Assembly: GCA_002696485.1 (NCBI GenBank)
Contig: NZTP01000064.1
Span: 1-32,324, forward strand
Direction of reading: 5' to 3'
Origin: Altibacter sp.
GTDB taxonomy: Bacteria; Bacteroidota; Bacteroidia; Flavobacteriales; Flavobacteriaceae
DNA: 32,324 bases
The position numbers and the translations under genes were made by a program. Shown here piece by piece: positions 21,035-26,656 of the stretch. The notes under the pieces were generated by a model that saw nothing but the letters and a program-made list of their open reading frames with translations, searched no databases and had not been told where the DNA came from. The first letter of the stretch is position 1; every line of letters begins with the position of its first letter.

Positions 21035-22210
21035 TTATTCTTTTATGATCTTGTCATGAAATACTGTACCATCGACGTGGCTATTAATAAAATACAATCC
21101 GGTAGACCATCCGCTAGTATCAATTTCGCCATTTAGAGTACCCGGTTCTATTCTTAAAATAGATTGTCCTGCTTGAGTGATCACCTCCATGAATTCTATC
21201 GGAACTTCATTTACAAATAAGAGGCGATCTTTGACAGGATTCGGATAAAACTGTAGTCGTTGTTCTGTAGCATTAGCAATACCAAGAATATCTTTATCGT
21301 ACGAACCGGCCCATCCATATTGTGTGGTTGTGCCCGGTCGAATAATTCCTAAAGAAGTTGACAGCCCTGTATTTGTATTGATCACTCTGAGCTCTGAATC
21401 TCCAAGAGCCCCATTATACGCCGTATTCAGTAATTGATCGGTAGCATAATCGAATGTAAGTCCTTGTCCGAAATTAGCATCATAGCCAATAGGGCCTATT
21501 GCGCTGGTAATACCGGTAGCTACATCAATACCATACACGATATCATCATCAATGTCTATAGTGATGAGCGTATTAACACCGTCACTCCCCAGTGCAACAG
21601 GAACAATAAGTCCATTATTTCCGCCAATCATCTGGGCCTCCCAGGTTGTGGTATTAAGTTCTAACAAATGACTGCTGTCCACGCCATTCGTTGAAATGGC
21701 ATATAGCTGACCGTTGGGAGCTCCTAAAAGTTCTATTCCAGTGATAATTTCATTTGGGGGAAGGTTCGAAACACTACCTTGAAGTGTATAGTTATTATTT
21801 TCGACTCCTCTTATATACACTTGATTAAGATTATCGATGATGACAGCGCTGTTAGGGGGAGTCCCTCGGACTATACCAGCCCCTTCGAACTCGGTAAGGG
21901 AAGAAGGGCCAAAGTTTTCCGGTAATGCGAGATCTTCAGGATCAATAGAAACTACTGAAACAGGCGTTACTGCCTGAGTTGCTCCCAAACGCCTCCGCAA
22001 AAGACTTTCGGTAACAGGTGTCTCACTATTTAAAGCAGCCTGATTTCTAATAAATTGTAATTCCTCGACAGTATAAACATCCATCACACTACCCATGTGA
22101 TTCACTTTCATTCGATCCAATAATTCATCAAGGGTGTAATCTACCTGAGCCGTTGTAGTAACGCAAATCCCTAGTAGCATTCCCCATTTCACGATGTTGC
22201 TCCATTTCAT
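21035..22210 (-). CDS. secreted T9SS-sorted protein with beta-propeller-like body
   Basis: A 391-residue protein. A signal peptide (about 1-22, ending TTTAQ) is followed by a linker, then a repeat-rich body (about 105-310) with strand-loop units such as LYAISTNG, LLELNTTTW, VYGIDVATG and LRVINTNTG. These resemble NHL/DUF4394-type propeller blades. The C-terminal 70 residues form a type A T9SS sorting domain: LQFYPNPVKDRLLF at the start, DTSGWSTGLYFI in the middle and a final KIIKE. It should be exported and attached to the cell surface or released. The function of the body is unknown. A perfect 15-bp palindrome lies in the leader, 14 bases before the ATG. Confidence 0.85.
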   Translation of the reverse strand: MKWSNIVKWGMLLGICVTTTAQVDYTLDELLDRMKVNHMGSVMDVYTVEELQFIRNQAALNSETPVTESLLRRRLGATQAVTPVSVVSIDPEDLALPENFGPSSLTEFEGAGIVRGTPPNSAVIIDNLNQVYIRGVENNNYTLQGSVSNLPPNEIITGIELLGAPNGQLYAISTNGVDSSHLLELNTTTWEAQMIGGNNGLIVPVALGSDGVNTLITIDIDDDIVYGIDVATGITSAIGPIGYDANFGQGLTFDYATDQLLNTAYNGALGDSELRVINTNTGLSTSLGIIRPGTTTQYGWAGSYDKDILGIANATEQRLQFYPNPVKDRLLFVNEVPIEFMEVITQAGQSILRIEPGTLNGEIDTSGWSTGLYFINSHVDGTVFHDKIIKE

Positions 22211-23913: not shown

Positions 23914-25020
23914 CTATCTTTTAACGACCTTCTTTGTCTGGATACCCGTTTCAGTGAATAGCTTCATCACATATATTCCTGAAGCGTATTTGGACAGGTC
24001 CATCGAAGTTACGTTACCTTCAAGCGTGACCAAATTCTCTCCGAGGGGGGAATACAGTTCAACTTTACGCAGCGGCTGTGCTGTTGCGGCTATGTAGATC
24101 TTGGAATCCGTTGGATTGGGATAAATTTCAGTGATCAATTCGTTTATTGGAGCTCCTAAGAGTTCGCAATTAAAATCCTGTTCCACTTTAGAGGCAGCAG
24201 GTGGGTTCACTAAAAGATCGTCTGTCAATAAAGGACAATAGCAGTCATTATCTTCTACATACAATTTGAGCCATGAGAGTGCAATTTTACCCACGGCGCC
24301 ATTCCCGCCGTTGGGCGAATTAGCAACGGAGTGATTTCCGTTTGCCACTTCAAACAATAACTTATCGGTTGTATTTGGTGTAACATTGTAATGGATATCG
24401 GCGTGTTGGGCCGGAGGCGCTACCGTATCGGCTTCACCGCTAAAAATAAGCACCGGACTTCCATGATTCAATTGGGGGCTGGTAAGGTAAGGACACAAAG
24501 CAACCACACCAGCAATAGAATTGTCAAGCACGGCAGCTCTTTGCGCTCCGCCGCCACCCATCGACCAACCACTTACCGCCAGTTGGTCTAAGTTAAGGGC
24601 ACCTTCCAAAGGAGATGCGGTTCTTACATTTTCTTGTCTAATGGTTTCTAGGGCATCCAAAAGTGCCAGCGCCCGTGCTTCGGGAAAATCGAAAGGAGAA
24701 TTTGTACCTATAATTATCGCCACTATACCGTGGGACGCATAAAAAGGACCCCATTCTGCCACACTTGAGGGAGCAGCCGTGAATCCTGGGACGATCGCAA
24801 TACTAGCAAAAGGCGGTGTAGCGTTCGTTGGATAATAGACGGTGGCACCGTTATAAGCGGGTCCGTTACGAATACCATCGGCTTCGGTAAGGGTAGCTAC
24901 CTCGAAGGGTCCGGGATTGGTAAGGCTCTCGACCGTAACGCCATCACATTGTGCAAACAGTTGGTTCGAACTGAGCACTGAAGTGATGACCAACAGCAGT
25001 AAAATATAAATTTTCTTCAT
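23914..25020 (-). CDS. secreted PETase/cutinase-like serine hydrolase with T9SS tail
   Basis: A 368-residue protein. The signal peptide (about 1-23) is followed by an alpha/beta hydrolase domain (about 30-258) of the polyesterase (dienelactone hydrolase/cutinase-like) family. The nucleophile elbow GWSMGGGG carries Ser153; Asp198 (GEADTVAP) and His230 (NGNHSVANS) complete the triad. The oxyanion-hole segment is IVPGFTA (Phe80, where Ideonella PETase has Tyr87). Trp152 precedes the serine, and Tyr178 is near the position of the mobile Trp185. The PETase-specific disulfide cysteines next to Asp and His are absent (Gly195, Val232). Residues 260-290 hold cysteines that may pair, and 296-368 is a T9SS type A sorting domain (ITEIYPNPTDSKIYI...YASGIYVMKL). 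Bacteroidota relatives (Aequorivita, Kaistella) include enzymes with PET-hydrolysing activity. Confidence 0.9.
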   Translation of the reverse strand: MKKIYILLLLVITSVLSSNQLFAQCDGVTVESLTNPGPFEVATLTEADGIRNGPAYNGATVYYPTNATPPFASIAIVPGFTAAPSSVAEWGPFYASHGIVAIIIGTNSPFDFPEARALALLDALETIRQENVRTASPLEGALNLDQLAVSGWSMGGGGAQRAAVLDNSIAGVVALCPYLTSPQLNHGSPVLIFSGEADTVAPPAQHADIHYNVTPNTTDKLLFEVANGNHSVANSPNGGNGAVGKIALSWLKLYVEDNDCYCPLLTDDLLVNPPAASKVEQDFNCELLGAPINELITEIYPNPTDSKIYIAATAQPLRKVELYSPLGENLVTLEGNVTSMDLSKYASGIYVMKLFTETGIQTKKVVKR

Positions 25021-25159: not shown

Positions 25160-26656
25160 CTACTTCAAGGTCATAAAGGTCTTTTTCTTCCTTCCGTCAT
25201 TCATCATGATAAAGGTGTCGGCCGCGTAGGTTCCATAAAACGGCAGATAGTATTCATTGCCTCTGTTATCTTGAATCTTGTTATAGGCTACTTGTCCGTC
25301 TACCGTATATTCAAAATCGTATAAGGAAGAAGATTCAAACCATCCCCGCGATACTTTGGTACGACCGTCGTCCTTTTCGGTAAGATTCTTTCCGGAGTTT
25401 AGAATGATGTGCAGCTGATCATCCTTCAAAAAGGCATTGTAGGAAGGGGAGGTGTCTCGCTTAAAAACACTTCGGCCCCAAGCAAGATCACCGTTAGCGG
25501 CAAACTTTAAGACCAAGATATCATCATAATGATAAACGGTTTGGTAATAGCCTCCCGTGGTTCCCGTGCGAACATATGTTGTGGTCTCATAGAATTCTTC
25601 AGCAATAAGATAAGTGCCTCCCTGACTGTCGGTAAGAACATAATCAACCTCGAAGTTCTTCAGTTCTTTTTTCTTGTCGTTCTTACGTTCGGCAGTGCGA
25701 TAGCCGTAAAGATCCTCATATACCTGCTTTGGGAGCGGATGCGTTTTTTTGGTCGTTACTGAAAAGCTATTGGTGTCGATCACAAAGTCGCAGCCACCTT
25801 TCACCCGACTTGCATTCCGCTCTGAATAAAAGCCCAACAAGTGCAGTTTGTCGTTGGTTTGTGAAATGGTAAGGGACTGTATATGTTCGTCATCCAGTTT
25901 TACAATGAGCTCATCGGCTTTGTCCTTTGTGATCTTGTTCAGCACAAAAACATAGTTGGCGTCACCTTTGCTGTTCTTATTCGATCGGCCGTTGCGAAAC
26001 AGTTTCCCTAAGGAGTATACAGCGGCATTGTCATCGATGAACAGATCGTTGTGTATGAACTCATGCTTTTCGTCTTCCTGATACGAACGTTCGTATTGCA
26101 GAGCTTCCGAAGCGGCATCAAAAACCCGAATGGTATATGAATTCTTGTTCTTACGAATATCGTCGGTTGCCACTGCAATATACTTGCCGTTTGGAGAGAG
26201 TGCGAAACCCGTTTTGTGGTTCTTTCGGGAACCAAACAGACTTTGTTTCTTCTCGACGGTGGTAGTGAAAAGGGTGGTTTTGGTGTGCGTCCCCGTGGCA
26301 ATATCGAGGGTATGACAGTAGATGATGCGTTCGTCCTTCTCCGGTGCATAGACGGTAAAAAGTTTTAATTGATCTTTGTAGAACAGGTCGCCTACATAGG
26401 TTTCATCTTTATCGCTTTCCACCACTTTGGAAACTGTTTTAATGAGGTTTGCATCAAAAATATCGAACAAGAGGTCCCGCTTTGCATTTCGAACGATGGC
26501 GGTCTTCCCCGAAGATGTAGTATGTATGGTCAAGACCTCTGTAGACTTGACCTCGTCCTTGTATTCGGCGCTTTCGCTTACGTTGAGGTTCGTTGTGGAT
26601 TGGGCAATGATCACGCCGGAAAGCGCGAGGAAACAAAGGAGTAGTATTTTTTTCAT
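25160..26656 (-). CDS. secreted protein of unknown function, propeller-like
   Basis: A 498-residue protein with a clear signal peptide (about 1-18, ending VIIAQ). The body is rich in short beta strands separated by charged loops (FALSPNGKYIAVATDD, YTIRVFDAASEA, LTISQTNDKLHLLGFYSE, ILVLKFAANGDLAWGRSVFKR), which suggests a beta-propeller. No catalytic motif, lipobox or T9SS sorting domain is visible, so it should be periplasmic or secreted otherwise. Lysine-rich segments (KKTHPLPKQ, ERKNDKKKELKN) interrupt the repeats. I do not recognise a named family beyond flavobacterial hypothetical proteins. A gap of about 140 bases separates it from the hydrolase gene, so separate transcription is likely. 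Confidence 0.75.
   Translation of the reverse strand: MKKILLLCFLALSGVIIAQSTTNLNVSESAEYKDEVKSTEVLTIHTTSSGKTAIVRNAKRDLLFDIFDANLIKTVSKVVESDKDETYVGDLFYKDQLKLFTVYAPEKDERIIYCHTLDIATGTHTKTTLFTTTVEKKQSLFGSRKNHKTGFALSPNGKYIAVATDDIRKNKNSYTIRVFDAASEALQYERSYQEDEKHEFIHNDLFIDDNAAVYSLGKLFRNGRSNKNSKGDANYVFVLNKITKDKADELIVKLDDEHIQSLTISQTNDKLHLLGFYSERNASRVKGGCDFVIDTNSFSVTTKKTHPLPKQVYEDLYGYRTAERKNDKKKELKNFEVDYVLTDSQGGTYLIAEEFYETTTYVRTGTTGGYYQTVYHYDDILVLKFAANGDLAWGRSVFKRDTSPSYNAFLKDDQLHIILNSGKNLTEKDDGRTKVSRGWFESSSLYDFEYTVDGQVAYNKIQDNRGNEYYLPFYGTYAADTFIMMNDGRKKKTFMTLK

Follow-up and report, generated by a model that had tools for sequence, protein, structure and literature searches.

The gene studied here lies on a contig of Altibacter sp. 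(NZTP01000064.1; "the window" is the whole stretch that was analysed, 32,324 nucleotides). It very probably encodes a serine esterase that is exported by the type IX secretion system (T9SS) and that represents the PET27/PET30 group in the Altibacter lineage. This reading rests on the sequence of the gene, the residues and clade of its product, the T9SS genes of the genome and the purifying selection acting on the core, all of which were observed.

Domain organization of the product

The product is read as a putative signal peptide followed by a PETase-family hydrolase and a type A T9SS tail (Table 1). The PETase model PF12740 was matched with an E-value of 1.6e-53 (182.3 bits for a cut-off of 28), far above what chance would give for such a sequence. 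At the C-terminus, the Por secretion tail PF18962 (39.4 bits, cut-off 27) and the T9SS type A tail TIGR04183 (45.2 bits, cut-off 23) were both above threshold, and the PETase-like enzyme with a T9SS domain announced in the preliminary description is thus recovered by the family models. The BHET hydrolase model NF051441 gave a sub-threshold match (144 bits for a cut-off of 520) and, under a loose limit, the dienelactone hydrolase (DLH) family PF01738 gave 15.6 bits, below its cut-off of 21.

Table 1. Features of the Altibacter gene and its product (positions in the window)
Feature	Position	Strand	Remarks
PET30-like T9SS-tailed esterase/polyesterase gene	23914..25020	-	ORF from ATG to stop, 368 aa; function label by analogy
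Predicted signal peptide, residues 1-23	24952..25020	-	putative cleavage after A23, by analogy with PET27-PET30 (as given in PMC8767016)
PETase-family catalytic domain PF12740, residues 31-265	24226..24930	-	182 bits
Phe80, putative aromatic clamp/oxyanion-hole residue (IsPETase Tyr87)	24781..24783	-	role by analogy, from PMC8767016 and PMC12224614
Nucleophile elbow GWSMGGGG, residues 151-158, with Ser153 and Met154	24547..24570	-
Tyr178 (IsPETase Trp185)	24487..24489	-
Catalytic Asp198	24427..24429	-	alignment to IsPETase
Catalytic His230	24331..24333	-	alignment to IsPETase
Cysteine-rich linker, residues 260-297 (CYCPLLTDD...C)	24130..24243	-
T9SS type A C-terminal sorting domain, residues 299-368	23917..24126	-

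The enzyme belongs to the PET27/PET30 group

The best match in the PDB was 7PZJ, PET30 of Kaistella jeonii (E 1.8e-147). Over residues 25-262, the Altibacter protein shares 191/238 positions (80.3%) with PET30 and 87/233 (37.3%) with IsPETase. A tree of 42 rows was built, leaving out LCC and true dienelactone hydrolases. The window protein and that of A. lentus paired (100/100) and fell, together with PET30, in a 26-row clade of Bacteroidota (99/98), the narrower PET30-like set of 22 rows being supported at only 71/98. IsPETase stood apart, in another branch (95/82) with 7CWQ, Ple628/629, 8OTU, Nonomuraea L042, 7YKQ, 8EU0 and L041. Seven distant PF12740 proteins of other Bacteroidota fell outside both branches; the tree program warned of long branches meeting, chiefly at such distant rows. 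The Altibacter enzyme is therefore a further member of the published PET27/PET30 group. The preliminary description had placed it among the Bacteroidota polyesterases exported by T9SS, and this interpretation is supported by the tree, the identity to PET30, the DLH score and the T9SS genes of the genome; the word "polyesterase" would be an extension to the Altibacter protein of the assays reported for PET27-PET30 (PMC8767016). Among the entries examined in our search of open-licence papers, no study of this enzyme was listed, and the main text of PMC8767016 does not mention Altibacter.

Three other loci are worth recording. L041, on a Piscinibacter gummiphilus plasmid (NZ_CP136337.1, locus 360-1232), encodes a protein 96.6% identical (225/233) to the Ideonella sakaiensis PETase, and its gene adjoins a lipase secretion chaperone gene. 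L055 (8459-12233, genome G140) carries three PET30-like genes in tandem; residues were read for two of these genes, and Trp80 was seen in one, Leu154 and Phe178 in the other. Finally, L020 (7926-9008, uncultured Saprospiraceae) is a clade member devoid of the type A T9SS tail, and no Pfam family was over its cut-off at its C-terminus.

Active-site residues and cysteines

Key residues were read by script (F80, W152, S153, M154, Y178, G195, D198, V200, H230 and V232) and aligned with IsPETase, giving the correspondences F80 = Y87, W152 = W159, S153 = S160, M154 = M161, Y178 = W185, D198 = D206 and H230 = H237. Both the Ser-Asp-His triad (S153, D198, H230) and the Phe-Met-(Trp/Tyr) binding motif (F80, M154, Y178) are present. 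The alignment agrees with the earlier placing of the GWSMGGGG elbow, Asp198, His230 and Phe80, and it sharpens that of Tyr178, previously put only "near" Trp185, to an exact equivalent. Since C203 and C239 of IsPETase are replaced by G195 and V232, the PETase-specific disulfide is absent, as had been claimed.

According to PMC8767016, the Phe-Met-Tyr motif of PET30 "seems to be a unique feature", and Table 3 of the same paper also lists F-M-Y for PET58 and PET59. In our alignment, this motif was found in 5/27 clade rows (the window, A. lentus, L026, L010 and PET30). When columns 80, 152 and 178 were removed before tree building, position 178 required at least seven changes among Trp, Tyr and Phe; it is labile and a poor guide to function. 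A histidine occupies position 210 (IsPETase Ile218) in 27/27 clade rows and in 0/9 others, which have Phe (seven) or Ile (two), and position 206 (IsPETase Ser214) is also His in 27/27 clade rows, as well as in 7/9 others. These two positions have been linked to the mobility of Trp185.

The product has cysteines at positions 25, 176, 260, 262 and 285. PET30 is described as having a C262-C285 disulfide and no active-site disulfide (PMC8767016), and by sequence both partners of the crystal pair are present in the Altibacter protein. Cys262 and Cys285 occur in 25/27 clade rows, Cys260 in 27/27 (Arg in the nine others) and Cys25 in all 26 rows in which that end is present. The two exceptions, L037 and L038, show a Phe and a gap at positions 262/285, yet they keep Cys25 and Cys260, suggesting two separate cysteine pairs. 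This conservation pattern suggests a second pair, C25-C260, beside C262-C285. PMC8767016 states a single disulfide for the PET30 crystal, with C25-C260 unmentioned, and this may speak against the second pair.

The M5 motif DxDxR(Y)xxFxC is absent from the Altibacter protein, which has DNDCYCPLLT there, near the end of the catalytic domain. The pattern we used, an approximation of the published one, was found in 0/27 clade rows and was present in IsPETase, L041, L042, 8OTU, 7YKQ and 8EU0, three reference stretches being too short to score. As reported in PMC12224614, PET activity was confined to enzymes carrying M5, and most Flavobacteriales sequences fell in lower classes. However, PET30, which lacks the motif by our pattern, is reported to be active on PET, so this motif is not an absolute requirement.

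Export machinery and proposed mode of action

The genome of the window encodes one full-length SprA, a full-length PorU and 58 type A T9SS tails. SprA was found in 17/17 genomes searched, which include the 15 carriers of the family sample and leave out three carriers of the class sample (it is partial in one, at a contig end), and PorU in 4/4 genomes searched. The window also encodes a second T9SS-tailed protein (21035-22210, minus strand, 391 aa), the fourth gene downstream of the enzyme, a weak relative of which (28%) lies near the enzyme gene in L011.

We infer the export route, activity range, substrate and detailed mechanism of the Altibacter enzyme by analogy with its relatives. The protein would cross the inner membrane by means of its signal peptide and the outer membrane via the type IX system, PorU would remove the tail, and the enzyme would act on the cell surface or in the surrounding medium. 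There, Ser153, polarised by His230 and Asp198, would attack ester bonds, with the backbone amides of Phe80 and Met154 forming the oxyanion hole. The groove, lined by Phe80, Trp152 and Tyr178, may accept esters of short to medium chain length as well as soft polyesters, and would accept aromatic polyester only weakly; the real substrate would most likely be a natural ester or polyester of the environment.

Selection on the core, activity of relatives and rival readings

Compared with A. lentus, the catalytic core (residues 25-259) gave a dN of 0.026 and a dS of 1.40, hence a dN/dS of 0.019, and the ratio was 0.10 for the linker and 0.19 for both the tail and the signal peptide; these Nei-Gojobori ratios are rough, as they come from one species pair with dS near saturation. 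The core is under strong purifying selection, and we infer that it has hardly changed over a time much longer than the history of plastics. Such an almost frozen core would imply that a natural substrate exists, and the dN/dS of about 0.02 suggests that this substrate is old. "PETase" would then be the name of a side activity.

Four active members of the group, PET27-PET30, have been assayed (PMC8767016), and all hydrolyse pNP esters, PCL, BHET and Impranil. PET was hydrolysed by PET27 and PET30 only; PET28 and PET29 had no activity on it, and group membership therefore does not predict PET hydrolysis. According to the same source, IsPETase outperformed PET30 on PET by up to 253-fold at 30 C and the two were about equal at 4 C, PET27 (F-M-W) released 38 times more TPA than PET30 (F-M-Y) at 30 C, the changes F80Y and Y178W toward IsPETase cost PET30 activity, and removal of the PET30 tail left its activity unaffected. 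We thus expect by analogy that the Altibacter enzyme has esterase and PCL activity with weak or no PET activity; activity on PET is probably low. The available text of PMC8767016 names no natural substrate for the group.

The product could instead be a secreted esterase of small or lipid esters whose polymer activity is a side reaction without natural role, a reading that overlaps ours and that we hold to be possible, if rather doubtful. PET30 and PET27 are most active on pNP-C6 and pNP-C8 (PMC8767016), PET30 bears the name "Lipase" in its PDB record, and no polymer-utilisation locus was found around the gene. The PETase family, however, is generally lidless with an open groove. Moreover, each of the four assayed relatives, PET27-PET30, clears both PCL and Impranil, a polyester polyurethane (PMC8767016). 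An efficient PET hydrolase adapted to plastic is very unlikely. Trp152 and Ser231 do resemble IsPETase at its positions 159 and 238, and PET30, with the same clamp motif, equals IsPETase in the cold (PMC8767016), but the M5 motif and the PETase-specific disulfide are missing, His206 and His210 replace Ser214 and Ile218, PET30 falls far behind IsPETase at 30 C (PMC8767016), and a dS of about 1.4 with a dN of 0.026 leads us to think that plastics appeared long after the core had become fixed.

Grouping with ordinary dienelactone hydrolases, the alternative raised in the preliminary description, was checked by family scores. That the product is such a hydrolase with a T9SS tail is scarcely credible: the fold is shared, a weak DLH match exists, PMC12224614 searches such enzymes as DLH-domain proteins and the clade member L020 exceeds the DLH cut-off (29.5 bits for 21), but the Altibacter product stays below that cut-off while scoring 182 bits as a PETase, and it sits in the tree among solved PETase-family enzymes. 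Furthermore, of six DLH-model matches in its own genome, four were scored with the PETase-clade profile, and one of these matched, weakly (L059, 22.3 bits). A T9SS-exported esterase of the PET27/PET30 group remains our preferred reading.

Distribution, gene neighbourhood and possible transfer between orders

The catalytic domain was found in 2/4 genomes of the genus, the match in G003 being to the tail only. The enzyme gene of one genome of the genus, G001, has the contig coordinates of the gene in the A. lentus record (L009), and G001 is therefore taken to be A. lentus. In the family sample, 15/397 genomes and 11/237 genera matched at 1e-8, showing that the gene is sparse in the family. In the class sample, 20/395 genomes matched, only four of them (own included) with at least 47% identity, and in the phylum sample PF12740 matched 8/395 at 1e-15, with 59-74 bits for matches other than our own.

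In the window and in A. lentus, the gene order is enzyme, DUF4256, two AHSA1 proteins, dnaK and dnaE2. In the two remaining genomes of the genus the arrangement is dnaK-dnaE2-dinB-sdaA, and no relatives of the enzyme block were found there within roughly 9-10 kb beyond dnaK. In G002, a one-contig genome of the genus, dnaK reads in two frames meeting near codon 373 (L051, 9784-11687), perhaps through a sequencing error. Sixteen loci were compared, some of one genus and some ending at contig ends. The enzyme was the only family present in more than three of them, and no neighbour held its place between genera. Gene order is conserved among the Altibacter loci, among the Aequorivita loci and between the members of the pairs L014/L017 and L016/L019; the few more widely shared neighbour families sit at varying distances from the enzyme, and a distant AHSA1 relative (29%) lies 4.9 kb downstream in L053. 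The enzyme looks like a lone gene, and the absence of common neighbours across the 16 loci speaks against a shared operon or polymer-utilisation locus. In the window, the S41 neighbour had no match in the three other Altibacter genomes at E 1e-20 in a search run without a positive control. Upstream of the enzyme, a 498-aa protein (25160-26656, minus strand) has a start that looks by eye like a signal peptide, and it matched no Pfam or NCBIfam model at E 0.001. Phage or viral carriage found no support: phages gave no match to the enzyme, and none was confirmed in viral contigs; plasmids gave five records, all below 60% identity and none covering 80% of the query.

For transfer, DnaK served as the clock, as DnaE2 was matched in 6/16 genomes only (DnaK of G204 and G163 is partial). 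In G877 and G976, which belong to another order, the catalytic domain is 81-82% identical to that of the window while DnaK is only 74-75% identical. The corresponding ranges are 72-86% and 86-93% for nine carrier genera of the family (own and three divergent carriers left out), 47-53% and 87-88% for the divergent carriers G140, G153 and G334, and 47% and 76% for G818, of the same family as G877 and G976. In the tree, G877 and G976 (f59 rows) nest with Flavobacteriaceae rows at 96/93, with bootstrap unsettled. These sequence comparisons make transfer between orders likely; AU tests did not reject the alternatives, namely f59 as one clade (p 0.18) or the Flavobacteriaceae/PET30 rows as one clade (p 0.21). 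The pattern could instead come from wrongly binned contigs in the assembled genomes, but L014 and L017, which are related loci, have matching flanks, and over the core L014 does not differ from the G976 protein.

A possible tail exchange in the Altibacter lineage

In alignment A1, the core of the Altibacter protein is 77-86% identical to nine homologues from other genera and its tail only 28-35% (ranges leaving out A. lentus and L020), whereas the tails of those nine are 37-100% identical among themselves. We compared by phmmer 23 PETase-clade tails and 28 tails of other proteins from the genome of the window. The PETase-clade tails gave medians of 32-66 bits among themselves and 11-23 bits against the other set. 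Against the PETase set the window tail had a median of 21.1 bits, against the other set one of 21.6, and its best match fell in the latter (37.5 versus 29.4 bits); the A. lentus tail behaved alike (34.8 in the other set versus 30.0 bits). The Altibacter tail thus resembles PETase-clade tails no more than it resembles unrelated ones encoded in its own genome, which suggests a swap. In a tail tree of 74 columns, the 23 tails and one other formed a 97/94 branch with the Altibacter pair outside; an AU test did not reject PETase-clade and Altibacter tails as one clade (p 0.44). These sequences are most simply explained if the Altibacter lineage exchanged its tail at a point between about residues 289 and 298; alternatively, the Altibacter tail may have diverged rapidly. 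If confirmed, the exchange would show that T9SS tails can be traded as modules in nature, a point of relevance to enzyme display in Bacteroidota.

Taken together, a lone gene, the crossing of orders, a tail swapped for a resident one in Altibacter and an almost frozen core could describe a PET30-like core that is a mobile, surface-delivered cassette for an old natural polyester. We put this forward tentatively, as a quite possible idea that falls short of probable.

Comparison with known enzymes

What is added here to the known group, namely selection on the core, sparse distribution with a possible crossing of orders and a possible tail swap, are modest evolutionary points. PET30 (WP_039353427, PDB 7PZJ; PMC8767016) shares with the Altibacter protein the same numbering, the S-D-H triad, F80-M154-Y178, the cysteines C25/C260/C262/C285 and a T9SS type A tail. 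It comes from another genus, has Thr200 instead of Val200, and its tail reaches a best score of 57.9 bits to PETase-clade tails, compared with 29.4 for the window tail. As described in PMC8767016, PET27-PET29 of Aequorivita have the same domain architecture, with a Phe-Met-Trp motif where the Altibacter protein has Phe-Met-Tyr. Aequorivita is represented in our alignment by L011-L013, the own sequences of PET27-PET29 being left out; these loci are in the same clade as the window, with 80-84% identity over 261 catalytic residues. IsPETase (Ideonella sakaiensis, PDB 6EQD) shares the PETase family, the GWSMGGGG elbow, the triad and the equivalents of Trp159 and Ser238. In contrast, Altibacter has F for Y87, Y for W185 and H/H for S214/I218, and neither the C203/C239 disulfide nor the M5 motif. 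Finally, PET93 and PET94 (Maribacter, Arenibacter; PMC13188925), which are PET-active, are likewise flavobacterial, secreted alpha/beta-hydrolases, but they are reported to have no PorC-type tail and a Tyr-Met-Trp motif, and they were separated from PET27/PET30 by their authors (PMC13188925).
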